This document shows, piece after piece, positions 42,299 through 60,936 of a stretch of 64,000 nucleotides of DNA (position 1 is its first letter; each line of letters begins with the position of its first letter). The stretch spans positions 124,001 through 188,000 of the forward strand of contig WHVD01000068.1 of NCBI GenBank assembly GCA_015178975.1, read 5' to 3'. Position numbers and translations under genes: made by a program. The notes under the pieces are model-generated. The model saw only the letters and a list, made by a program, of their open reading frames with translations, was not told where the DNA came from and ran no database searches. Source of the stretch: Hysterangium stoloniferum. Taxonomy: Eukaryota; Basidiomycota; Agaricomycetes; Hysterangiales; Hysterangiaceae.

Positions 42299-43753
42299 AA
42301 TGATAGATCAGCTGAATTGGGAGGGAGGGAGAGAGGGAATGTGAAATGCAAATAGTGTGTAGCAAAATCGGGAGGCCAAGGAAAATGTAAGAAATACACT
42401 GATATAAACTGTTTGGTTGTTAGAAAGTGCACAATAAATATCAAAAATGGAATTCACCTTGAATATTGCCTGACTATCTGGAAGCAGCCACAAACAATAG
42501 GAGGAGCAGAAGGATGTCAAATTTGAAAGAGTAGACAAATCCAGAGTCTGATCCAAGGAAAAGGTCCAGAGAAAACTCCAATAAAATATGATCAAGAGAG
42601 CTATATGGCTTATCTGGAACCTAGCCAAGTTCCCACCAGAATGGAACACCAAACAGGGAAATCGCCGCAAGACAGTGCAAAGATAGGAAGGCTTATATGT
42701 GACCCCTCAGTCAATGTACAAATCCAAAGATTAATGCATGTGACCCAGGTTAAGCCCCTTGCACCGCTAAGTGAGAGAGGTACTTGGCAATAGCAAACTA
42801 AGGCTGTGCAGGTGCACTTCACACTCAATAGGCTTGTTCAACCTGTAAGGTACACCTCCTCCAACTGGCAAGCACATCACTGATACACAAAAAAAAAAGC
42901 CAAATAATCGCAAGGAAAGCAGCAGCAGTAGACAAAGAAGAGCTGTCAGAAGAGGTCAGAAGAGGAAAGGAAGGAAAGTGGAAAAAGAAACCTTATATAG
43001 AGAGTGAATCCTAAAATAGGGCAAAAATGCGAAATTAAATTGTAAATAATTTTGAGCTAAGAAATAGCATCTAAAATAACATACCTGGAGATTTATAAAA
43101 AGAGACAGAAAAGGTGACAGGGCAAAAAGGTGGCACAAAAGGGCCAACTATTATCAAATAATATATTTTAACTTTTTAAACCAAGCAAAAAATGAATTAA
43201 AGGCCAGGACTCACCTTGTACCTTAAGAAAGCACTCAATAGAAGAGGAGGAACATATGGATTGATCAGGGAGAGGGAGAGGGAGAGGGAGAGGGATTGAA
43301 GTAAAAGACACTAAAATAGCTTGAGAAAGCATAGAAAAAAAGATTAAATATTTTATAGCAATATAAATGGATGATAAACATACCTGAAGACAGTATATAT
43401 CCTTCAGGGAGTGGACTACCAAATTTAGAGGCAGAGAAAAGTGTGGAAAGAGGGCAAAACCGGCTGCATAGATATTATTTAATGATTAAAAAAGGCAAAA
43501 ATAGAGAGAAATAAATACAGGACTCCACACACCTTTAATAATGCCCTAATACCTCAGAGAATTGTTTCAAGAAGACTCTACAACAATATAGGTAGTAGAG
43601 CCTTTGCGGGGAGGGAGTGGAAGTGGAGATAGGAGTAGCAGCCTTGAGGAGTAGCAGCCTCGAGGCTTACTGTGGACTTCCGGTGGTTCCATGGAGTGTG
43701 GGAACCTGGGCCGAAATTGCCCCTGCCCTGAGAGAATAGTCCCACACACATCA
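42299..43753 (-). other. Helitron D2 leader, shared with A
   Basis: Near-identical to 2872-4330 including splice-like donors at about 43207 (aag|gtgagtcc) and 43382 (cag|gtatgt), acceptor at about 43464, and a (gggaga) run with one unit fewer than in A (43268-43294). No protein recognised. Just past 43753 the sequence switches to satellites, whereas A continues with 5'-subterminal units. Confidence 0.65.
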
Positions 43754-43880
43754 AAAGCGTTTGTAGAACGGAAAGCGTTTGTAGAACGGAAAGCGTTTGT
43801 AGAACGGAAAGCGTTTGTAGAACGGAAAGCGTTTGTAGAACGGAAAGCGTTTGTAGAACGGAAAGCGTTCGCAGAACGGT
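43754..43880. repeat. 18-bp array aaagcgtttgtagaacgg
   Basis: Seven head-to-tail units, the first six almost perfect. Confidence 0.95.
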
Positions 43881-45020
43881 CAATGGTTACAAATGGACTC
43901 AACGGTTACAAATGGACTCAACGGTTACAAATGGACTCAACGGTTACAAAAGGACCCAACGGTTACAAATGGACTCAAAGGTTACAAATGGACTCAAAGG
44001 TTAAAATGGACTCAAAGGTTAAAATGGACTTAACGGTTACAAAGGAATTAATGGTTACAAAGGAATCAACAGTTACAAAAAGAATCAATGGTTACAAACA
44101 ACTCAACAGTTACAAAAGGAATCAATCGTTCCAAAAGGAATCAATCGTTCCAAAAGGAATCACTCGTTCCAAAAGGAATCAATCGTTCCAAAAGGAGTCA
44201 AAGGTTACAAAGGAATCAAAGGCTACAAAAGGAATCAGTGGTTACAAAGGAATCAACAGTTACACAGGACTCAACGGTTACAAAAGGAGTCAACAGTTAC
44301 AAAAGGAGTCAAAGGTTACAAAGCAGTCAACAGTTACAAAAGGAGTTAAAGGTTACAAAAGGAGGCAAAGGTTACAAAGGAGTCATCAATGGTTACAAAA
44401 GGAGTCAACAGTTACAAAGCAGTCAACGGTTACAAAGGAGTCAACAGTTACAAAAGGAGTAAACAGTTACAAAGCAGTCAACGGTTACAAAAGGAGTCAA
44501 AGGTTACAAAGGAGCCAACGATTACAAAAGGAGTCAAAGGTTACAAAAGGAGTCAAAGGTTACAAAGGAGTCAAAGGTTACAAAGGAGTCAAAGGTTACA
44601 AAAGGAGTCAACAGTTACAAAAGAAGTCAACAGTTACAAAAGGAGTCAATGGTTACAAAGCAGTCAACGGTTACAAAAGGAGTCAACAGTTACAAAGGAG
44701 CCAACGGTTACAAAAGGAGTCAAAGGTTACAAAGGAGTCAATGGTTACAAAGGAGTCAATGATTACAAAAGGAGTCAAAGGTTACAAAAGGAGTCAACAG
44801 TTTACAAAAGGAGTCAACAGTACAAAGGAGTCAACGATTACAAAAGGAGTCAACAGTTACAAAAGGAGTCAACCGTTACAACGGAGTCAACAGTTACAAA
44901 GGAGTCAATGGTTACAAAGGAGTCAATGGTTACAAAGGAGTCAATGGTTACAAAAGGAAACAACTGTTACAAAAGAAAACAATGATTACAAAAGGAAGTA
45001 AAGGTTACAAAAGAAATAAC
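43881..45020. repeat. ~19-bp array (caaaaggagtcaacagtta)
   Basis: About sixty units. It starts as caaatggactcaacggtta, then caatcgttccaaaaggaat, then caaaaggagtcaacagtta. Because the units lack stops in most frames, a 436-codon open frame runs through; it has the composition of the repeat and is not a gene. Confidence 0.95.
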
Positions 45021-45039
45021 AGTTCCAATGGTTGAATTG

Positions 45040-46132: not shown

Positions 46133-46720
46133 TAACTGCAAGCACCTACACTTGCAGCATCTTGAACTCTTTCTCTTGAACTTAGCTAATTCATCTAAGT
46201 TCCCTCAGCTTCCCGGAAAACCTTTAGGCTTACTAATCACTTAAGTAAATCTAAATTCTTATTACTGAAATCCCTGCCCGTTTAGGTTATTCAAGAGCCC
46301 ATTTTAACAGCACAGTTAATCGATCTTTAAACAAACGCTTGGATATTCGACTCTCAGACAATCTCTCTATTTATAAATTATTTAACAGCTTGTTAAATCT
46401 TTATAAATAGTAAACTAAAAGGCTACAAGAAAGCGAAGACTTACGACAAGTTTCTGCCAACTTATTGCACATACATTCAGCTCCCGAACCTTTATTCTCA
46501 AAGAGAACTTAACTTTCGTAGAGCACGTCACTACAAGTTCATCTGAATTTGTCAAGAGACCAAACAAATATTGACTTTAGTTGTTTAAGCGTAATAGCGC
46601 AGCTAATTAATCTATCAGTATTTAAATTACTGGATCTTTATTTGTTTATTTCTTGAATCCCTTGCCATGTCAACGTTTGTTAATTATTTGAGAGAGTAAA
46701 TAGCTGGATACCTTACATCA
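46133..46720 (+). mobile_element. Element X, copy X1, right part
   Basis: Resumes X1 after the TA of the Tc1 insertion. Matches the reverse complement of the left half of X2 (for instance gcgcagct.attaatctatcag and agtatttaaattactgga) and ends ctggatacc.ttacatca. Confidence 0.75.
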
Positions 46721-47028
46721 TCCCAGCTGGACCTAATGATCCACTTTTTTGCTGGCGGGATAATAAGGGTGAGATTAGGCCGATGGTCAAGAAAGCAGCA
46801 ATGGATCAGATAAATTCAATTCTCAATATATGGGGATGGGGAACAACTTTCGGACATTCATTTTGCATTGGGGGAGCATCCTTTTTCTTAGCACAAGGGG
46901 TCAATCCAGAGATAGTGAGATTGGCGGGTAGATGGAAATCATTGGCATATGAGGCGTATATTAGAGCCTTCGAGCAAATGGCATCACGCTACATAGGGAA
47001 CCTTTCGGTAGGAAATATCGCTGCCTGA
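46721..47028 (+). pseudogene. Tyrosine recombinase, C-terminal catalytic part
   Basis: Reads PAGPNDPLFCWRDN, MVKKAAMDQINSIL, WGWGTTFGHSFCIGGASF, VNPEIVRLAGRWKS and YEAYIRAFEQMASRYIG. In the family the first box is GHSFRIGGAS; the catalytic Arg is Cys here (CGC to TGC fits CpG decay). The later H/R...W and Tyr boxes are present. It completes the gene begun at 30653 and ends with TGA at 47026-47028. Confidence 0.92.
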
Positions 47029-47206
47029 GGTTGGGTAGACGGCGTAGACTCGCCGTGTTTGTTGCAGGCAGGTTTTAGTGGGTGAGCGGCAAGTCTTCCC
47101 ATGCATACGCGGAGAGCTAACACTCCCCCTACCCAACCATACAGCTCCTCGCACAGAGCATTACTGAAGTAGATGAAGCTGGACGTTTGTGACAAGTTGT
47201 CACATT

Positions 47207-49357: not shown

Positions 49358-49719
49358 TTCCCTTTAGCCATATTCTCATTAACGTTTGCCGTCATCGTTG
49401 CTACCCTATTTGCCTCTGTCTTGGCTGCACCCGTGTGTATCTTGTTATATTTTACCCTGTGTTAACCCATTAAGATCCCCATAGGCTCCTGACATTAGTG
49501 CTAAACCATCCACTTTGAAGAATGGTCAAGATGCGATTGCATTGAAGTACATGATTCCCACCAAATGTTGACCCCGTTGACTGTATATGTACTCTAGCGA
49601 TAGTTCACTTCCTTGTCCGCAAGCTCTGCTTGCAAGGACGGTGACCTGGCCTGTATCAACGGAAAGTTTGCCCAGGTATGCCGGGGATTTTTATCTCACT
49701 TTTGCGTAGAAATGCCATG

Positions 49720-50529
49720 TGTTAGGATACACACACAGGGCGGATCTCGTGAGAAACCCACGGGATATCCAGTAGGACTTGGCTTCAGCTTATAGGCTGC
49801 GCCCTCGCTAGATTGTGTTGTCCAATTTCGAACAGGCGGACGGGAATCCCGGGGAGTCCAGGCTCAGTTCGTAGGTTGTAGGTTGTAGGTCGTGAGGTCG
49901 TGAGTTGTGAGTTGAGATAGTCGGGAGAGATAGATACGTCAGAGCCCGTGGGCTCTGACTAGTGCGAGCAGTGTGATTAGAGTAGGGAAAATATATTAGA
50001 TTAAAGGGGGGAATCTAAGCTAATTTTCTGACTGGATTGTATGTACAACATCTGCCAGTTTAAATAGACCATGGAGTGAATGAACATACTAATCCAGTAA
50101 TAATGAAAACGAAACTAACAAAACACAAACGGGAAATGTAAACACCAATTTTGGTGTTAGGAACGGAACGGAACGGAGCGGAGTCCGAATCGTGACAAAG
50201 CATAACCCATAACGGGAAACGGAGTGGGAGCAGAGTCCTAATCATGACAGGTCATTTGACTAAAATGGGAATGGGGCTCGAATAGAGCGGTGACGGGATT
50301 CTGAGCGGGATCTGGTGACTGATGCGTGGGACGAAGACGGACATAGACAGGGACAGAGTCCGGGGGAAGTCCGGTTACTGATATGTGTCGTACTGAGGTC
50401 GAACGTAACAAGTCTTGACGTAACGGAGTCCGGGCGGGAAATCCTATAAACAGATGATTGGTGCTTGTGGCGCGTGGGGGCGTATGGGCTAGTGCCCGGA
50501 GTCCGGCGGGATTTGTCCAGGTCGTAACA
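49720..50529 (-). repeat. 3' LTR of Ty3 element
   Basis: 810 bp. Differs from the other LTR at about thirty positions (around 4 percent), nearly all transitions and mostly CG in one copy against TG or CA in the other. Confidence 0.95.
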
Positions 50530-50543
50530 GTATCCTCCCTTTA
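50530..50543 (-). promoter_or_regulatory. Polypurine tract
   Basis: Minus strand taaagggaggatac directly before the 3' LTR; plus-strand DNA priming site of LTR elements. Confidence 0.75.
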
Positions 50544-50678
50544 TGCCGAAGTCCCAAAGAGGCTTAGACCTAGATAAGGTTCTTGTCGGCTACGCGCATG
50601 TGTCAAAAGTCATGTCGGTTACACGTATGTGTCAAAGAGTCATGTGATCTGGAAGGTAAGGTTCAAACGCGACGAGCC

Positions 50679-50687
50679 TATATAAAA
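50679..50687 (+). promoter_or_regulatory. TATA box of the antisense gene
   Basis: tatataaaa, 52 bases before the ATG at 50739, in a stretch between the 3' LTR and the plus-strand coding region. Spacing fits a fungal TATA promoter with a short 5' UTR. Confidence 0.55.
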
Positions 50688-50738
50688 ATTGAAAAAAATA
50701 GAAATTTCTTCTTCTTTATTACCCCCATCTTCGTCACC

Positions 50739-51718
50739 ATGGGACCAAAACCAACACCATGCAAGCCAATGCCGACAGCAGGGCCCTCCACGGGCACTCC
50801 GTATCGGGCGCCGTGGAGTGCGGCCCAATTGTTGGCGCAGCGAGAAGAGCAACGCCAACTGCGTGAAGCAGCAGAGAAGGAGGTGAGGGAGGCCGAGGAG
50901 GCCCTGGACAGAGAGTACCAGGAAGCGTTGGCCGCGGAGGAAGAGGCCACAAAGGAGAGGGAACGTGAGGCGGAGGAGGCTGCGCGAGTGGCTGCAGAGA
51001 AGGCCCGGGTGGCTGCAGAGAGGGCCGCCATTGTTGCGGGAAAAGTAAGTCCCAATATTCGACTTGTCGAGCTTTTTACTGACTTGTAATTTTCAGCGCA
51101 AAGTGACAGAGGTGGAGTCCGAGTCCGAGGGGGAGCCGGAGAGCCCCCAAAACGTAGGCCTCGTGTCTGTGGGGCTACCACAGGAGAAACTGACCACATC
51201 AACAGAAGGCAAGGAAGGCGGCGCCAGTCCGTCTTCCAACGCGGAACGAGCCGCGGTGTTCTGGTTGTAGTGACCGGAACACGGAGTGTAACAGGAAGTC
51301 CGGCCAGGGGCCGGGCTGCTATCAATGTGTGCACCTCAAGGCGAGGTGCTCGCTTGTGCATGAGCAAGCCACGGGGTCCGGGGTGCGGGACATCAGCGGG
51401 ACGGACGGGTTTTCCGGGTTGGATGAGGTCCTCGGGCGGATCGCTGAGGGCATCGAGGCCCAAAACGTGTTGCTCCAGAAGAGCAACAAAGTCCAAGTGA
51501 AGGTGGCGAAGGAGCTGTCCGGGCTCCGCGGGGAGTTTTGGAAGTTCCTGGCGGAGTATGGCAGCTATGTGTATGAGGAGCCGCAGATCGGAAGTTCCCA
51601 GGATGCCGGGTCGGATGAGGAGGGGGTTGCCACGGAGATCGCGGAGCTTCCTGGGGAGATAGCTGAGGCGGAAAAACAGGAGGCGGGGAAAAAGGACAGT
51701 CCCATAAATGTAGACTGA
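50739..51718 (+). CDS. Antisense Zn(II)2Cys6 coiled-coil protein inside the Ty3 element
   Basis: Exons 50739-51044, 51097-51153 and 51206-51718 give 291 residues. ATG in caccATGg context. Both introns are 52 nt, phase 0, with gtaagt/gtaggc donors, ctgac branch sites and cag acceptors; unspliced frames hit stops. Residues 1-30 are Pro-rich. About 28-100 form an Ala/Glu/Arg coiled coil (EREAEEAARVAAEKARVAAE). Cys 139, 142, 149, 159, 162 and 169 follow C-x2-C-x6-C-x9-C-x2-C-x6-C, the Zn2Cys6 binuclear cluster of fungal DNA-binding proteins. Then a helical segment (LGRIAEGIEAQNVLLQ, KELSGLRGEFWKFL) and an acidic tail. It is antisense to gag-pol, so its introns would survive retrotransposition. 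Function unknown; DNA or nucleic-acid binding is inferred. Confidence 0.75.
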
Positions 51719-51923: not shown

Positions 51924-53246
51924 TCAGAGAGACGATAATGGTCCAGGTTTGTGTGGGTAAGCTGTATGAAAGTCAGTAACGATTTCCGTGGCATTACCGA
52001 GTTCCGTGGCCAAAATCCATGAAGTCTCTTCATTGGTGCCCTCGTAACCCGCCCACTTGACCAAGTAAAGCAGTTTACAAGTGCGTTGACGCTTGTCAAT
52101 TTTTGAATCTAAAATCTGCGAGATTTCAAACTCGGGTTCTCCGTCAATGACGACAGGAGGAGGTGGGGATTGCATGCGATCCGGGAGAGTGTTAGCAGTA
52201 CAAGGTTCTAACATAGAAACATGAAATACCGGGTGTACCGCGCGCATGCTATCCAGAAGCCGTAGAGTCCAAGAGACTGAACCTACTTGTGCAATAATTT
52301 CAAACGGACCTAAATATTTTTCAGCAAGCTTTTTTGATGGACGGGTAGTCCTGAAGAATTGAGCTTTGACATAAACACGGTCACCTATCTTGAAGTTGGG
52401 TGGCAGGATCCGGTGTCTGTCCGCTGAATGTTGATATTGCTCTTGGGCGGACTTTATTGCAGTCCGGAATTCCTTGTGGAGCTCATGGAGGTCCGTGGTG
52501 AACTCTTGAGCGCGAGCAGAGGCGAGATTTCATTCTGGATGTACTGTAATATTTGGATTATATCCTTTATTTGCAAAGAACGGGGAAACACCAGTAGTGG
52601 CCGAAGGAGCATTGTTGTAAGCAAACTCTGCAAGTGGTAACAAGGATTTCCAATTGTCCTGTTGGTAATTGCAATATACGCGGAGGTATTGTTCCAACGT
52701 CTGATTGACGCGTTCGGTTTGTCCGTCGCCTTCCGGGTGATGTCCGGACATGAAATGTAAGGTCATGTCCAAGGATTTTCCGAGGGATCTAAAGAAGTGA
52801 GACACGAACTCTGATCCTCTATCGGAAGTCACGTGGGACGGAACTCCGTGCTTGGAAAATATGTGAATGATGAAAAGTTCCGCTAACTGCACGGACGTAA
52901 TTGTGTCATATGTAGGGATGAATATACCTTGTTTTGAGAATCTGTCAACAACGACTAGAATGGCGGAAAAGCCTTCGGAATCCGGTAGGTGTTCCATAGA
53001 GATAGAATTCCACGGGTGATCCGGTACCGGGAGTTGTTTCAAAAGGCCGTATGGCTTGTGTCGCTGTGATTTTGAGCGGGGACAAGTAGTGCAAGATTTA
53101 CAATAGTGCTTAACGAATCCACGGAGTCCAGGCCAAGTATATTCTCTTCTTATTAATGATAGAGTTTTGTTGTACCCGAAATGTCCTGTGAGTGGATGAT
53201 CGTGTTTGTATTGGAGGATCCTTAGGCGGAGGCCATCGGAGTCCGG
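51924..53246 (-). pseudogene. Ty3 integrase and chromodomain
   Basis: The zinc-binding region (DHPLTGHFGYNKTL...YCKSCTTCPRSK, about 53070-53200) is followed by the core. The first catalytic Asp is missing: SISME runs straight into HLPDSEGF where relatives have about three more residues including Asp. The second Asp (VTSDRGSEF) and the Glu (DGQTERVNQ) are 35 apart, the normal D35E. An in-frame TGA at 52530-52532 is the only stop before the C-terminal region and the chromodomain (EISQILDSKIDKRQ, LYLVKWAGYEGTNEETSWI, 51950-52130), which in chromoviruses targets integration to heterochromatin marks. Confidence 0.9.
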
Positions 53247-53866
53247 TACATTTTTGAAGCCCTAATAAAAGCTGCAGCATTAATCAGAGAAATGGACGGA
53301 GGTGCCGTGGGTTCCGGGGAAGCTATAGGTGCCGTAGGGATCACAGGAGTCCTCGAGACTGCAGGTGCCGGGAAGGCCATGGGTGCCGTGGAGGCCGAGA
53401 CAGGCACAGTTTCCTCGGCTGCCGCGGGGGTCTGGAATGTTATACTGTTAGCTATCCAGTCAATCAATGGATTGTAGTGGGTAAGCCAGTTATGTCCTAG
53501 GACCACCGAGCAACTTGAGTCTAACTGGGTCACATAGAAAGTGACCAATTGAGATGTTCCACATGGGAATGTGATGGATAAATCACAAGCTTGGGTAACA
53601 ACCGAATTACTTGTGCCATCGAAGAGGCGGAGGCCGACGGGATTTATCGAATAAGTTGGCAAAGAATTTCTTTGCGTAAATTTAGTATCTAAAAAACAGT
53701 GAGTCGAGCCAGAATCTATTAAAGCTGAAAAAACGAATTTCGGGAGCATATTAGACATAAGTTTAATGAAAAATGAATCAGAATGTGAGAGAGCAGATGC
53801 GTTGAGGCGAGTGAACTCTTGAATGCGCGGAGAGGCAACACAACCCCCAACCCACGCGGAGTCCAC
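53222..53866 (-). pseudogene. Ty3 protease, truncated pol start
   Basis: A 214-residue frame beginning at a GTG at 53866, frame-shifted from gag. Retropepsin motif FSALIDSGSTHCFLD and VVLGHNWLTHYNP are intact. A Pro/Ala linker then leads to ISLINAAAFIRASK, where the reverse transcriptase should begin within a few dozen residues. Instead the sequence jumps at about 53250 to the integrase N-terminus (VPDSDGLRLRILQY in another frame) and stops. Confidence 0.88.
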
Positions 53867-53874
53867 GGGGTTGC

Positions 53875-55137
53875 TTACTCTTTTTTCGAGTTGGAAGCCG
53901 GTTTGTCCTTCGACGGGGTATCCACGGAGGCCTTGGCCTTAGAAGAGTTTGCTTTTGCCAGCGGACATTCCGGGACTCGATGACCGGGTTTCCCGCACAA
54001 TAGACAGAGGTTGTTGTCCATACGACGTTGTCTTTCCTGTGGGGTCAATTTGCCATCAGGTCCCAGTTTGCCTGAGAGATCGGGTTTTCCGGCTTGCTTG
54101 CTGGACTGTTGACTTTTGTTGTCCTTATTGTCCTTGTTGTTGTTGTTGTTTGAAGATTTTTTATCGTTCTTCTTGTCGGATTGCGTGGAGTTGCTTGTTG
54201 ATGAATTATTGGTATTATTTTTATTGTCCTTGGACTTGGTTACTTTGTCTGCGGATGTCTCGCGGGCAACTTCCGCATGACGTTCCCAATAACGTGTGTC
54301 CGCGTTTTGAGCCTTGAGGTGCATACGGGACAGGGTTTTTGGCTTGCCATCTTCTCCTTTTGAGACTTCGTCTTTAAGGCGGGACGGCAGACCGGCGTAG
54401 AATTGGTGGCGGAGAGCGGAATCGCCCCACTGACAACGAGCTGCAAGATTGTTGAATTGGACGATATAGTCCGTGATGCGCTGTGTGTCCTTCATGCGAA
54501 GATTTGTGAGACTGTTCTCGGCTTCTCCTGTCGGGTCATACGGGCCAAAGTTGGTTTCAAGCTCCTCAACAAAAGCATCCCAATTTTCAAGCCAGAGCGG
54601 CTCTTCCTTGGAAATCCCGCTAAAAGCCGGTTCGAACCATTTCAACGCGGATCCCGACAAGTACGAAAGTGCATAGTTGACTTTTCGGGAGTCCGTGGAG
54701 AATGCAGCAGCACAATCACGGAAATTGAAGCGACATTGCATGAGGAAAGTGGAAAGTTTGTTTGGGTTGGAACCCGTGAAGGGTTCCGGAGCATTGACTT
54801 TTGACCGTGGAGGTTCTTGTTCCTTTTTCTTTCGTTCTTCAAGCAGGTGCGTCATAAATTTATCTATAGTGCCTGCTAAACACTCAGAAGTAGGATCCCC
54901 CAAATGCGGTCGCTGATTAGGCGGAGGATTTTCGACACCTTTTCCTTTGTCGGGTGCCACGGAATCGTCCTCGTGCTCGGATTCGTCCTGGTTTTCCGGG
55001 ACTTCTTCGATACGGGTTTCTTCCATGGGTTCCGGTTGGTCCAAGGATGTCTGGCTGGTATACAGAGATAACGGGGAATGAAGAGTTGATGGTCCAGGTA
55101 ATGATGCCTGAGCACGTGTATTTCTTTTTGGTGGCAT
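53875..55137 (-). CDS. Ty3 Gag, intact 420-residue frame
   Basis: Starts MPPKRNTRAQ at 55137, 36 bases inside the 5' LTR. An acidic N-terminus (EETRIEEVPENQDESEHEDD) is followed by a capsid-type region (VNAPEPFTGSNPNKLSTFLMQCRFNF, ALSYLSGSALKWFEP, FGPYDPTGEAENSLTNL), a Ser/Asn/Lys low-complexity stretch (320-370) and one CCHC knuckle CLLCGKPGHRVPEC. It forms particles and packages RNA in the family. It is the only fully open gene of this element on its strand. Confidence 0.93.
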   Translation of the reverse strand: MPPKRNTRAQASLPGPSTLHSPLSLYTSQTSLDQPEPMEETRIEEVPENQDESEHEDDSVAPDKGKGVENPPPNQRPHLGDPTSECLAGTIDKFMTHLLEERKKKEQEPPRSKVNAPEPFTGSNPNKLSTFLMQCRFNFRDCAAAFSTDSRKVNYALSYLSGSALKWFEPAFSGISKEEPLWLENWDAFVEELETNFGPYDPTGEAENSLTNLRMKDTQRITDYIVQFNNLAARCQWGDSALRHQFYAGLPSRLKDEVSKGEDGKPKTLSRMHLKAQNADTRYWERHAEVARETSADKVTKSKDNKNNTNNSSTSNSTQSDKKNDKKSSNNNNNKDNKDNKSQQSSKQAGKPDLSGKLGPDGKLTPQERQRRMDNNLCLLCGKPGHRVPECPLAKANSSKAKASVDTPSKDKPASNSKKE

Positions 55138-55173
55138 AATGAAAACAATCTGCGAGTATCAGTCAGAAAATAC

Positions 55174-55983
55174 TGTTAGGATACACACACAGGGCGGGTC
55201 TCGTGAGAAACCCGCGGGATATCCGGTAGGACTTGGCTTCAGCTTATAGGCTGCGCCCTCACTAGATCGTGTTGTCCAATTTCGAACAGGCAGATGGGAA
55301 TCCCGGGGAGTCCGGGCGAGGTTCGTAGGTTGTAGGTTGTAGGTCGTGAGGTCGTGAGTCGTGAGTTGAGATAGTCGGGAGAGATAGATACGTCGGAGCC
55401 CGTGGGCTCCGACTAGTGCGAGCGGTGTGATTAGAGTAGGGAAAATATATTAGATTAAAGGGGGGAATCTAAGCTAATTTTCTGACTGGATTGTATGTAC
55501 AACATCTGCCAGTTTAAATAGACCATGGAGTGAATGAACATACTAATCCGGTAATAATGAAAACGAAACTAACAAAACACAAACGGGAAATGTAAACACC
55601 AATTTTGGTGTTAGGAACGGAACGGAACGGAGCGGAGTCCGAATCGTGACAAAGCATAACCCATAACGGGAAACGGAGCGGGAGCGGAGTCCTAATCGTG
55701 ACAGGTCATTTGACTAAAATGGGAACGGGGCTCGAATAGAGCGGTGACGGGATTCTGAGTGGGATCCGGTGACTGATGTGTGGGACGAAGATGGACATAG
55801 ACAGGGACAGAGTCCGGGGGAAGTCCGGTTACTGATATGTGTCGTACTGAGGTCGAACGTAACAAGTCTTGACGTAACGGAGTCCGGGCGGGAAATCCTA
55901 TAAACAGACGATTGGTGCTTGTGGCGCATGGGGGCATACGGGTTAGTGCCCGGAGTCCGGGGGGATTTGTCCAGGTCGTAACA
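55174..55983 (-). repeat. 5' LTR of Ty3 element
   Basis: 810 bp, TGTTAGGATAC...TCGTAACA on the plus strand. Holds the element's own promoter, read toward lower coordinates. Confidence 0.95.
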
Positions 55984-56176
55984 CCATGCCATCTCATGTC
56001 TCCATCAGTGCTCTGGGGGGAAATTCCTATTAACGTCCTGTGCAGTCGGGACAATGCATGCTTAATGGACACATGGTCTATCTTTCATTCCTAACACTTA
56101 ATATCAGCTGCATTGCTCTTCCTCTCGTTAACAGGCCGGGAACTGTGCGTCTTCATCCATTCCATTTCCTCGTTAC

Positions 56177-56412: not shown

Positions 56413-58308
56413 TTAATAAAATCCCAATTTCTTCTTTAAATAGTTATGCTGGTTTAAGTCCAGCCCTTTTGTCATAATATCCGCCGGGTTTTCCTTTGAC
56501 TGAACGTATGTAAGTGATGCCTCGTTAGAGACCACTTTCTCGCGAATGAAATGGTAAGCAACTTTGATATGCTTTGTACGTGCGTGAAATGTTGCGTCAT
56601 GGGCAAGTGAAATCGCACCTAGATTATCTGATTTCATAGTTGTTGGGTCATTACTGATATCAAACCCTAAATCGGTAAGTAATTTCCGCAACCAAGTCAA
56701 TTCTTTGGCTCCTTCGGTTAAGGCAATATATTCGGCCTCGGTTGTGGATAATGCCACGGTCCTCTGCTTCTTTGAGCTCCAAGCGACGCATCCTCCGTTA
56801 ATTAATACAACGTAACCGCCAATTGATAGCGCATCGTCCCAATTTGCATAATCTGAATCGACATAGATCTCTATTTCGATTTCATTGCTTGACTTGTAAG
56901 TAATGCCATCATCTTTGGTCCCCTTAAGGTACCTTAAGACGTGTTTAATGGCCGTCCAATGCTCATTTGAATAGAAGTTTGTAAATTGGCTTAAATGTTG
57001 AATGGCAAATGATATATCGGGCCGAGTTCCCAGTGCCGCGTACATGAGTGATCCGACTGCCTTTGCATAAGGTTCATTGATAACCGGTTCACTTTTGGAA
57101 TCAGGTACCGGCACGGTTAACTTTGTCGATTTATTAAGGGGTATGGATACTGGATTTGCGTTCTGCATTTGGAATCGAGATAGGATGACGTCGATATATG
57201 CGCCTTGCGATATTTTGAGTGTTCCTGCTTTGCGATCCCTTTGTATTTGTATTCCTAGTATTTTTTTCATGTCCCCTAAGTCAGTCATAGTAAAATTGTT
57301 ATTTAGTTCTTGTTTAATTTTTGCCATGCCGTCTTATGTATTTGCAAACAGTCCTAGATCATCCACATAGGCTGCAATGATCTCAATATTTGGTCCATTG
57401 ATTCTAATGAATATACATTCATCAGCGGCACTTTGGGTATATCCCAAATCGAGTAATGTCTTCTTTAAGCAATGATGCCAAGCGCGGCCTGCCTGTTTGA
57501 GTCCATAAAGCGCCCTATATAATTTGAGTACTCTGTCAGTTCCATCATTAAATCTGTCCGGTTGTTTCATATAGATTTCCTCTTCCAGAATAGAGTTCAA
57601 ATATGCACCTTTGACGTCCATTAATCCTATTTCCCAATTTAGTGCTGTCCCCAAAGCAATTAGTGCTCTGAGTGACACAAATTTGAGTACCGGTGAAGTT
57701 ATGTCATAATAGTCCATTCCAGGACGCTGTGTGAAACCTTGTGCGACTAAGCGACCTTTCACCTTTTCAAATTTCCCTTCTGGGCTTGTTTTGGTAGCAT
57801 ATACCCAACGGCATCCTATTGCCGTCCTGCCGGGTGGTAAATCAATTAATTCCCAGGTACCAATTTGTCGGTGCTGTTCTATTTCTGTTTCCATAGCGGC
57901 AATCCATATTGGTGAGTCATTTCGGGAAATTGCCTCTTTGTAATCCTCGGGAGGAGTTACAATTTCTCGCGTCACCATTACTTTATCTGTAAACCTTGAT
58001 TTGGGCCAGGCATTTGGGTTATTAAGTGTCCGGTAGTCTGGTAAAGTACTATTATTAATCCTTGAACTGTGCCGTGCTTCTTGTGGCTGAATGTCTGGTT
58101 GTGATGTAACTTCTTCAATGTAGGCCTCTGTGGGTGCAATTGACGTATTTGGTGTGATGACCATTCTACTGGGTCGCTCGGCATTGAAACTCTCCCCCTC
58201 AAGCGGGACAGTAGTTATTTCTTCACCTTCATTTTCTCCAGGTATTGGGTATAGCTTAGTGTCTGCAATATCAAATGTAATATTTCTAGAAGTTTGAACA
58301 CGCTTAGT
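56413..58308 (-). pseudogene. copia reverse transcriptase and RNase H
   Basis: One frame with a single TAA at 57334-57336. RT: SRNDSPIWIAAMETEIEQH, WVYATKTSPEGKFEKVKGRLVAQGF, LMDVKGAYLNSILEEEIYMKQP, YRALYGLKQAGRAWH and the active site AAYVDDLGLFAN, directly before the stop. The RT tail and RNase H follow: FTMTDLGDMKKILGIQI, AVGSLMYAALGTRPDI, IYVDSDYANWDD, ALSTTEAEYIAL, KSDNLGAISLA, HIKVAYHFIREKV and ENPADIMTKGL. The N-terminal boundary is set by the insert ending at 58309. All catalytic residues are visible; only the TAA and upstream damage inactivate it. Confidence 0.93.
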
Positions 58309-58886
58309 TTTTGTGTTAGGAGGATAACCCAAAACTTTAAAAGTTATTTATCCACTAAAGTATATATATTTATGTTGTTTGTTGTAAAATTAATATTTAA
58401 TCAAATTCAGTTGATTAGGTATCACTCTGAAGAATGCAAAGATATTAATATTTATTCTATATCTGACAAAATTTAGTCAAACAATCATCTGTAGATTATT
58501 CTTTTGGAATAAATTGCACAATGGGGATTGGTATCCCAGATAGTTCTGGTTAACTCTCTAAACCAACTAAATTTAAATTATATGAAATATATTTGAAAGT
58601 TTGCTTGGATACAAGAGAATAAATCATAACCCAAAGATTAAGTCATAACCCAAATAATCTAGGTTAACCCAAATAATCTAGGTTAACCCAAATAATCTAG
58701 GTTAACCCAAATAATCTTGTGTAACTATGTCATTTGTGTGTATTTTAAAAAGGCATGCATATTTTAAAGATGAAATTTCAGGTAATTAAATACAAACTCA
58801 CAGAATAAGTTGTCATGGCCAGAAGGAATAGTCTCACTTGGAAAATATGAGGATTATTCAGTAAAATTTTGTATATTCAATAAAGT
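58309..58886. mobile_element. Insert in copia pol, ~578 bp
   Basis: Separates GHT of the integrase from KRVQTSRNITFDI. AGT flanks both sides (58306-58308, 58884-58886), a possible 3-bp duplication. AT-rich and non-coding; four 18-bp units aacccaaataatctaggtt lie at about 58635-58715. No clear inverted termini. Possibly a MITE. Confidence 0.55.
58640..58715. repeat. 18-bp tandem repeat, 4 units
   Basis: aacccaaataatctaggtt repeated head to tail within the insert. Confidence 0.9.
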
Positions 58887-59511
58887 GTGACCATCCTCCT
58901 TATAGTACTTCCAGGCTTTAGCGTTCTCAGATATTCCTGTGAATATATGCTCTTCCGCTTTGGGATCCAATTTTGATCGCTGTTCGTCAGGTACCATTAC
59001 CCAACATTTGGTCCCAAATTCTTCTAATCATGATATATCTGGTTTCTTACCGAAAAATGCTTCATGGGGTGTTATGTCAGTTCCAAGAGCTCGGGTAGGT
59101 GATCGGTTCTTGATATAGCATGCGTATGAAATGGCGTCTGGCCATAAGGTTTTTGGTAAATCCTTCGCATATATCATCACCCTCGCATGTTCGACTATTG
59201 TGTGATTTAGCCGCTCAGCTATCCCATTTTGGGCAGGGGAGTAAGGCGCCGTGTTTTCTGTGATTATTCCCTCCTCTGTGCAGAAGTCTTTGAATAGTTT
59301 ACTTGTGTATTCACCACCATTGTCTGTCCTGATATGCTTTAACTTTTTGTTTATTTGATTTTCAACAAACGCCTTGTATGTTTTGAAGTGTTTCAGGGCC
59401 TGGTCCTTTGATGTGTCCGTAAATAAAACACTGTGCCTTGTTTTAATATCCGTGAACGAGTAAAAATACTTCTCGTGATTTGGTCCTTCGGTTGCGGCTG
59501 GTCCCCATACA
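58887..59511 (-). pseudogene. copia integrase core, downstream part
   Basis: Continues after X2 with WGPAATEGPNHEKYFYSF, HIRTDNGGEYTS (second catalytic Asp), YSPAQNGIAERLNHT (Glu), LWPDAISYACYIKNRSPT and THPHEAFFGKKP-type sequence. A TGA at 59028-59030 stands where Arg (CGA) is expected, then EEFGTKCWVM. The first catalytic Asp is in SDV just across the X2 insertion. Confidence 0.88.
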
Positions 59512-60936
59512 TCATGTAATGTATTCAGGGGATTCTCTTAGATAGCTCAATATATGCTATAGTGTCACAGAGCTTCAACAACAAAACAAGCAAAGGTCCA
59601 GTAATTTAAATACTGATAGATTAATGAGCTGCGCTATGAAGCTTAAACAACTCAAATCAATGCTTATTTTGATTATTGAAAGGTTCAATAGAACTGTGTA
59701 TGACTCTTTTAGCAAATAAAAGAACTAATCCTTGAGAATAGGGGCTGGAAGCTGAATATATGCGCAGTAACTTGGCAGAGACTTGATATAAGAGCTTCGG
59801 ATTCTTGTCTGCTTATTTGTAACTATTAATAGTTATTTAACAAGGTGTTAAATAATTTATTAATAGAGAAAATAATATGTATTGGATTATCTGAGTGCTT
59901 GTACTTGATTAATTCAATAAACTTAGGGCTGGGCCTTGAGTAATCTAGTATTGGCAGGGAAATTTCAGTAAGGATACTTAGATACTTATTAGGTTTATTA
60001 TCTAATTAATAAGCCTAAAAGGTAGCTGTGAGGCTGGGGGAACTTAGATGATTAGCTAAGTCCAAGAGTGCTGACAAAGATTCAAGATGCTGCAAGTGTA
60101 GGTGCTTGCAGTGAGTGTATCAGACTAAGGCTATTATTGTCCTTAGGATGATGAGGTAAGCTTCTGTGCTGTACTGTAAAATATGTGTGTGATAGATAAT
60201 TTTATTGGAAAGTTGGCCCTCCTTATATACATTTTGATAACTTAATGATTAGCTAACTATTTAGTTTATGAGGTCATTAGTTAGGTCATAATGACCTCAT
60301 ATTCTACTCATTATTTACCCTGTATTTATCACATGATTCCCCTCTCTGAGACAAGGGTTCTAAGCTTTGGCTTGAACAAGAAGGTTCAAGGCCGTGGTCC
60401 CGGGGACGGAAGCAAACGATGAGTCGGCGGGATCAAATAATGACTCGGGTAGTCACATTCGTGACCTGTGTGACATCCCGATACCGGACCGTGACTTGTG
60501 TGACAGTCACTCATGTGACTCATGTTACAGTCACCCATGACTAGTGTTACAGTCACCCATGACTAGTGTTACAGTCACCCGTGACTAGTGTTACAGTCAC
60601 CTGTGACTAGTGTTACAGTCACCTGTGACTAGTGTTACAGTCACTCACGTGACTGTAGTCATGTGACACCCGAATGCACACATACAAGCAAGCAATATGC
60701 CGAACAGTAATAACTAAGTAAATAAAATATAAATAATTAGTTAAAAATTATAATAAATTAATTGAGTAATAATAGCATAATATGAGTACATATATGCTAT
60801 TATTTATGCGAAGTTAAAAGGAATAAGGCCTATTTTTCACAATAAGCATAGTAAAAATACAATAAAAATTCGAGAAAATATTAAACAATTCAAAGAAAAT
60901 TAAGGGAACATTATGAGATAATGTTGATACATCACA
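59512..60936 (-). mobile_element. Element X, copy X2
   Basis: 1425 bp, minus orientation, start TGTGATGTATC at 60936 and end TTACATGA at 59512. Shares long blocks with X1. Removing it with one copy of TG restores the copia integrase SDV|WGP junction apart from one G/A change. It has TATA-like tatataagg (minus strand, about 60230). No coding capacity. Compared with X1 it carries an extra GTCAC-type array. Confidence 0.75.
60475..60665. repeat. ~22-bp GTCAC/GTGAC array in X2
   Basis: Five or six units of gttacagtcacccatgacta with flanking gtgac/gtcac variants. X1 has only isolated copies of the motif at the matching place (about 31840-31880). Confidence 0.85.

Follow-up and report, generated by a model that had tools for sequence, protein, structure and literature searches.

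The window analyzed here, a 64,000-nucleotide (nt) stretch of contig WHVD01000068.1 from the basidiomycete Hysterangium stoloniferum, contains a Ty3/Gypsy chromovirus with an additional gene (50739–51718) that runs antisense to gag-pol in a region of about 1.4 kb between the chromodomain and the 3′ long terminal repeat (LTR). The host element is a genuine insertion, bounded by two LTRs and by CCATG on each side (49715–49719 and 55984–55988) as a target duplication. Gag, protease, integrase, and SH3/chromodomain regions were identified in order on the minus strand of the window copy from Pfam matches and reading frames. Because the segment for reverse transcriptase (RT) and RNase H is missing, the window copy is a deleted, non-autonomous one; sister copies L018 and L014 have both between protease and integrase, giving the gag-protease-RT-RNase H-integrase-chromodomain order of a chromovirus. 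The presumed polypurine tract, so named from its position, is barely altered in 19 of 22 aligned copies and is replaced or missing in the other three (L012, L017, and L026).

Three exons of the antisense gene join in phase 0 to give 291 codons, separated by two 52-nt GT-AG introns. An earlier prediction made from the letters of the window alone (hereafter, the original prediction) had given these coordinates, exon limits, introns, reading frame, and cysteine spacing, all of which proved exact; the TATA box that it claimed is likewise present, just over 50 nt ahead of the ATG. Read from their composition, the basic clusters of exon 2 resemble nuclear localization signals (NLS-like). Positions of all features are collected in Table 1.

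Table 1. Features of the window chromovirus and its antisense gene (window coordinates; ratios are of nonsynonymous to synonymous divergence, dN/dS).
Feature	Position	Strand	Details
3′ LTR	49720..50529	-	96.3% identity to 55174–55983; termini TGTTA..TAACA
Presumed polypurine tract	50530..50544	-	adjoins 3′ LTR; sense-strand letters ATAAAGGGAGGATAC
Promoter-like block	50598..50738	+	outside LTR; TATATAAA at 50679–50686; conserved across copies
Exon 1	50739..51044	+	conserved N terminus MGPKPTP, then Glu/Ala/Arg-rich heptad-like stretch; dN/dS 0.198
Intron 1	51045..51096	+	GTAAGT..TTTCAG; GT-AG in 58/58 copies
Exon 2	51097..51153	+	acidic linker flanked by basic clusters GKRK.. and ..KARK
Intron 2	51154..51205	+	GTAGGC..CAACAG; GT in 55/58 copies, AG in 58/58
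Exon 3	51206..51718	+	cysteine cluster, predicted-helix region, acidic tail ending SPINVD, stop
C-x2-C-x6-C-x9-C-x2-C-x6-C cluster	51257..51349	+	intact in 32/35 stop-free exon-3 copies
pol C-terminal end, Tf2-1-like SH3 and chromodomain	51924..52529	-	Pfam SH3_Tf2-1 3.9e-20, Chromo 3.2e-07
Integrase (H2C2, rve)	52530..53261	-	Pfam
Aspartic protease	53222..53938	-	Pfam RVP_2
gag	53875..55158	-	Pfam Retrotrans_gag, Ty3_capsid
5′ LTR	55174..55983	-	partner of the 49720–50529 LTR

Related copies were collected from a genome of 111 Mb in 554 contigs, from H. stoloniferum (Agaricomycetes, Phallomycetidae) or a close relative, and in the copies examined the antisense gene is a constant part of the element. 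One GenBank protein of H. stoloniferum, P0001, has a 99% match in this genome over its residues 65–201 (of 201). In a sample drawn by integrase similarity regardless of the gene (best 150 of 4347 candidates), 103 of the 150 copies had an opposite-strand exon-3 match within 4 kb among the matches listed, 99 of them at a distance of 806–925 nt. Lack of a listed match means little for an integrase copy, because the exon-3 lists hold only the best matches (best 150 of 1334 candidate places scored). Twenty of the remaining 47 copies were fetched, one of which (L059) stops at a contig end before the gene, and all 19 readable copies carried the gene or a remnant of it (L053, cut by a contig end; L052, with an internal deletion; L055, promoter and first codons only; L057, part of exon 3). 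At all 20 of the long loci selected through an exon-3 match, exons 1 and 3 likewise sat next to the chromodomain of such an element, on the other strand (L012 with an insertion in exon 1; L021 ending before integrase); these loci show the gene's place rather than its frequency, since they were picked for having exon 3. An antisense coding region between pol and the 3′ LTR in most copies, as found here, is the hallmark of antisense accessory genes of the aORF-3R type. The conserved frame at the same site and in the same orientation, the conserved introns, and a dN/dS near 0.2 bear out the proposal that the gene is an accessory module belonging to a lineage of basidiomycete chromoviruses. Two of the outcomes that the original prediction named as refuting it did not occur: the antisense frame proved conserved, and 32 of 35 stop-free exon-3 copies have all cysteines in place. 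The original prediction had offered a captured host gene as the other possibility, and its introns and fungal-type cysteine cluster are indeed host-like. Recent capture by one copy is nevertheless very improbable: the gene or a remnant is present in nearly every sampled copy, its alleles reach synonymous divergences (dS) of 0.6–1.0 from the window's in exon 3, and no host homologue was found among the predicted proteins searched. The gene may have an old host origin.

Introns and reading frame are conserved across the family. From 60 aligned copies, two without the intron region (L049 and L057) were dropped, leaving 58 for splice-site counts; as many are close relatives, these do not amount to 58 independent tests. 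Terminal dinucleotides are kept almost throughout (Table 1), the exceptions being intron 2 donors of GC, TT, and CT in one copy each, and intron lengths range over 48–58 nt (intron 1) and 47–52 nt (intron 2). The loose branch motif CTRAY occurs in the final 35 nt of intron 2 in every copy and of intron 1 in 46. The lengths of exons 1 and 2 stay multiples of three in 35 of the 41 copies aligned first, beside free indels in the introns; 26 of these 35 have no internal stop, and the other 15 of the 41 are broken. By eye, older copies (L030–L048) often have Trp, Gln, His, or a stop where Arg or Gln stands in intact copies, a pattern expected from C-to-T decay. Two GenBank proteins of H. stoloniferum, gene models of unstated evidence, also cover the junctions: P0003 spans both, and P0002 the first, followed by a different join.

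Judged from its coding sequences, the gene is under purifying selection. The 26 open copies were reduced to 24 distinct coding sequences (L033, its start replaced, was dropped, and L019 equals L020), over which mean pairwise dN/dS was 0.20, with 0.186 in exon 3 and 0.09 in the cysteine cluster. Similar values were obtained for exon 3 over 35 stop-free copies (0.215) and between six divergent stop-free copies of the integrase-chosen sample and eight others (0.244, 48 pairs). In matched subsets, the gene yielded 0.17–0.18 versus 0.08 for integrase, 0.18 for the chromodomain, and 0.51 for protease (14, 14, and 8 copies, respectively), a coding constraint comparable to that of other element genes. 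Changes found in at least three of the 24 copies comprised 85 nonsynonymous and 117 synonymous, as against 104 and 67 among private changes (changes in exactly two copies being left out), and the deficit of nonsynonymous changes among shared ones (Fisher p = 4e-4; p = 0.015 without CpG) is expected if selection acts in transposing lineages. Constraint was uneven along exon 3, the cysteine cluster being the constant part (dN 0.066 and dS 0.776 across allele groups) and the predicted-helix region, residues 69–126 of the exon-3 alignment, the variable part (dN 0.287). Read in the five other frames, the 24 coding sequences gave dN/dS of 1.33–1.60 in four and 0.266 in the mirror frame. The last value, together with an env-like sense-strand frame that is open throughout in the window (369 amino acids between stops), could suggest that the real gene lies on the sense strand and that the antisense frame is its mirror. 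This is scarcely credible, given that the sense frame is open across the gene in one of 41 copies, the window's own, and is broken by intron indels; the low mirror-frame ratio would follow from the coincidence of wobble positions of both strands in that phase. Alternatively, the antisense RNA itself might be the product, pairing with genomic RNA to cause or tune silencing, and antisense transcripts of LTR elements may yield double-stranded RNA, according to the available text of one account (PMC7264820). With dN/dS at 0.2, a frame maintained in 35 of 41 copies while introns gain and lose bases freely, and splice sites and cysteines preserved, we regard an RNA product as improbable.

A TATA-type promoter belonging to the gene itself appears to lie immediately internal to the 3′ LTR. 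In the block upstream of the ATG, two imperfect repeats at 50598 and 50627 share ATGTGTCAAA, and mean pairwise difference over 50600–50719 was 0.045, 0.016, and 0.062 in successive 40-nt bins (21 copies, L012 left out). Over 50640–50738 the mean difference across 24 copies was 0.057, versus 0.148 and 0.201 for their two introns. When eight divergent copies were compared with six others, 50600–50719 differed by 0.000–0.071 and 50720–50739 by 0.22. Since the LTR and pol, too, vary less than the gene does, a part of the promoter conservation may reflect a common history of the backbone rather than selection. An antisense promoter driven by the LTR, as in the HBZ gene of human T-cell leukemia virus type 1 (HTLV-1), was considered and rejected, the conserved TATA block and repeats lying outside the LTR; neither strand of the 3′ LTR contains any 9-, 10-, or 12-nt word of 50560–50745.

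Alleles of the gene depart from the history of the backbones that carry them. Copies L011 and L018 are nearly alike in the LTR (0.8% difference), promoter (0.5%), and integrase (1.6%) but much less so in exon 3 (11.2%) and exon 1 (5.2%), and their differences are dense from 50738 and sparse after 51833 (window coordinates), an interval that corresponds to the gene and its 3′ untranslated region. L011 exhibits the same pattern against six further copies (exon 3, 11.0–13.2% apart); the contrast is weaker between L026 and L018 and absent between L024 and L018. In L013, L014, and L015, exon 1 is 24–27% from that of the window and exon 3 only 6–11%. Across 17 copies (L012, L017, L021, and L028 having been left out beforehand), exon-3 distance correlated with integrase (0.77) and LTR (0.70) distance, though less closely than integrase distance did with that of the LTR (0.85) and chromodomain (0.87); since the exon-3 correlations persist, exchange would be occasional rather than free. 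Between allele groups (7 by 11 copies; L069 dropped, its exon 3 being outside the alignment), exon-3 dS was 0.77 versus 0.149 for integrase of the same elements, approximately five times as high, and exon 3 was the more diverged in 77 of 77 pairs. Integrase was no closer within the deep group (0.165), and within the shallow group exon 3 exceeded integrase in 50 of 55 pairs. CpG decay was rejected as the source of the high gene divergence, because transversions at fourfold sites are also far more frequent in exon 3 than in integrase (0.205 versus 0.020 between groups; 0.042 versus 0.018 within the shallow group). By these measures, a copy of the gene can predate the backbone in which it sits. 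Recombination between elements, probably by template switching, would be the simplest account; homogenization of backbones would look similar. Rather unlikely, but worth stating, is that the gene forms an allelic regulator cassette akin in logic to the immunity regions of phage repressors, with a constant promoter and cysteine cluster, a variable helix region, and old alleles that recombine onto young backbones. Were this so, elements with a different allele would escape control by resident copies.

We consider it reasonably probable that this accessory gene of the Hysterangium chromovirus, with its own promoter and two splicing events, encodes a nuclear trans-acting regulator, most likely of the element's transcription. 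An antisense mRNA would start at the gene's TATA-type promoter, against the direction of gag-pol, and would be spliced twice and translated. The Glu/Ala/Arg-rich stretch, basic clusters, and acidic tail suggest a coiled-coil, cysteine-cluster protein that may be dimeric and nuclear, potentially binding metal and DNA, and that would act in trans on transcription of its own element. Being reversed on the sense genomic RNA, the introns could not be spliced out during the retrotransposition cycle, which would explain why the 58 aligned copies keep them and would allow spliced expression to coexist with mobility. Grande gene23 of maize and HBZ lend support to a regulatory role as analogies, not as relatives. 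If it is a true self-encoded regulator, this would be a retrotransposon with its own spliced control gene, unable to lose the introns while moving.

Several observations weigh against such a regulator. The promoter block is almost identical beside very different gene alleles, with no allele-specific operator visible. The 24 sequences behind the overall dN/dS had been recovered through protein similarity and selected for open frames, a choice that may depress dN somewhat. Six cysteines are present with a spacing that we take to be that of the Zn2Cys6 family (Zn_clus, PF00172), and they are kept in nearly all copies (Table 1). The Pfam Zn_clus score, however, is 10.9 bits versus a curated cutoff of 21, covering profile positions 16–32 of 39 only, and the first loop of the cluster lacks the basic residues typical of Zn2Cys6 proteins. 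AlphaFold prediction on exon 3 (35 copies) reached a mean predicted local distance difference test score (pLDDT) of 42.3, too low to be informative about the fold; a solved-structure search returned a single match, talin at E 1, taken as chance. CGG triplets, considered as target sites in the LTR, were rejected: counts in the two LTRs (33 versus 26.0 ± 3.6 and 44 versus 32.8 ± 4.0 in shuffles) do not go beyond the enrichment of the element interior (192 versus 142.8 ± 7.9), and because the interior excess is larger, the LTR count is nothing special. The DNA binding suggested in the original prediction is a conjecture from the cysteine spacing. Finally, searches of predicted proteins, which need shared short words and follow the best candidates only, found no relative outside Hysterangium; genes of repeats are often missing from predicted protein sets.

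A protein with another function is an alternative. It could help to bring the pre-integration complex into the nucleus or to its target, or it could be an anti-silencing factor that works against silencing of the element by the host; we hold this possible but doubtful. Protein-level constraint and the NLS-like clusters are compatible with such roles, and the faster-changing helix region (dN 0.287 versus 0.066 in the cluster) is what might be expected if the protein were in an arms race with some factor of the host. Yet pol already ends in a chromodomain, a known targeting module, and a mean dN/dS near or above 1 is not seen for the gene or its exons. A nuclear regulator of the element's transcription remains the reading we prefer.

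Other repeats surround the chromovirus. Beside it on the minus strand, 56413–59537 holds open frames of Ty1/Copia type, as judged from translations and not from a family search. Both elements lie inside inverted repeat arms (46364–46662 and 59569–59869) that are 79–80% complementary and ∼13 kb apart. A tandem array of 18–19-nt units at 43655–45035 is open as a 448-amino acid frame, whose Pfam match to DUF190 (5.1e-07, no single stretch passing) is probably due to chance, and a second array of 19-nt units begins at 47066. Between the arrays, a 114-amino acid open frame (46684–47028) has an end that looks tyrosine recombinase–like by eye and no Pfam match at E 0.01.

Antisense accessory genes are a known kind, occurring in plant Gypsy elements and, as brtn, in the fungal element Boty. 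The original study of brtn is reportedly Zhao 2011 (Virology 417:248). In the available text of later papers, Boty has gag-pol with a CHROMO domain (PMC4227169), and brtn is an additional antisense gene between pol and the 3′ LTR (PMC7264820; Boty also in PMC8365987). The Hysterangium element is alike in being a fungal chromodomain element with an extra antisense gene at that place; Boty differs in its ascomycete host, and brtn is compared here through the descriptions of citing papers only. The aORF-3R genes of maize Grande (gene23), rice RIRE2, and Silene Retand share the position between pol and the 3′ LTR, and Grande gene23 is described, in the part of the source available, as having its own upstream promoter and a nuclear product (PMC7264820). 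Retand, by the available account, falls outside the chromoviruses, in a lineage that has 2.9–6.6 kb between pol and the 3′ LTR as well as TRP28 domains, in contrast to the ∼1.4 kb, two introns, and cysteine cluster found here; the word intron is absent from the main text of two papers on plant aORF-3R genes (one being PMC7264820).

HBZ is a spliced antisense gene whose nuclear product lowers LTR expression, as far as the consulted text states (PMC10186651). HBZ and APH of HTLV resemble the present gene as antisense, spliced, nuclear regulators at the 3′ end, properties that here are read from sequence only. HBZ has its promoter within the 3′ LTR and codes for a bZIP protein, whereas the conserved block here is internal, with TATA box and repeats outside the LTR, and separate Pfam scans of exons 1 and 3 gave no bZIP match at E values up to 1; no sequence relation is claimed. 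Fungal Zn2Cys6 factors have a similar cysteine spacing, and the Pfam score below cutoff sets the Hysterangium protein apart from them. In the available, mostly open-access literature (including PMC11963269), no spliced or cysteine-cluster antisense gene of a basidiomycete element was found, and none that is antisense was seen in the available account of extra open reading frames in bdelloids (PMC5408684). What we did not find described before is an antisense gene in a basidiomycete that has a cysteine cluster as well as a conserved pair of introns and is exchanged between backbones. For years, Gypsy elements have been known to carry antisense accessory genes to which no function has been firmly assigned. 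The many copies of this one, its two persistent introns, its strongly conserved promoter block, and its alleles, far more diverged than the neighboring integrase, allow selection, expression, and allele exchange to be tested in a fungus.
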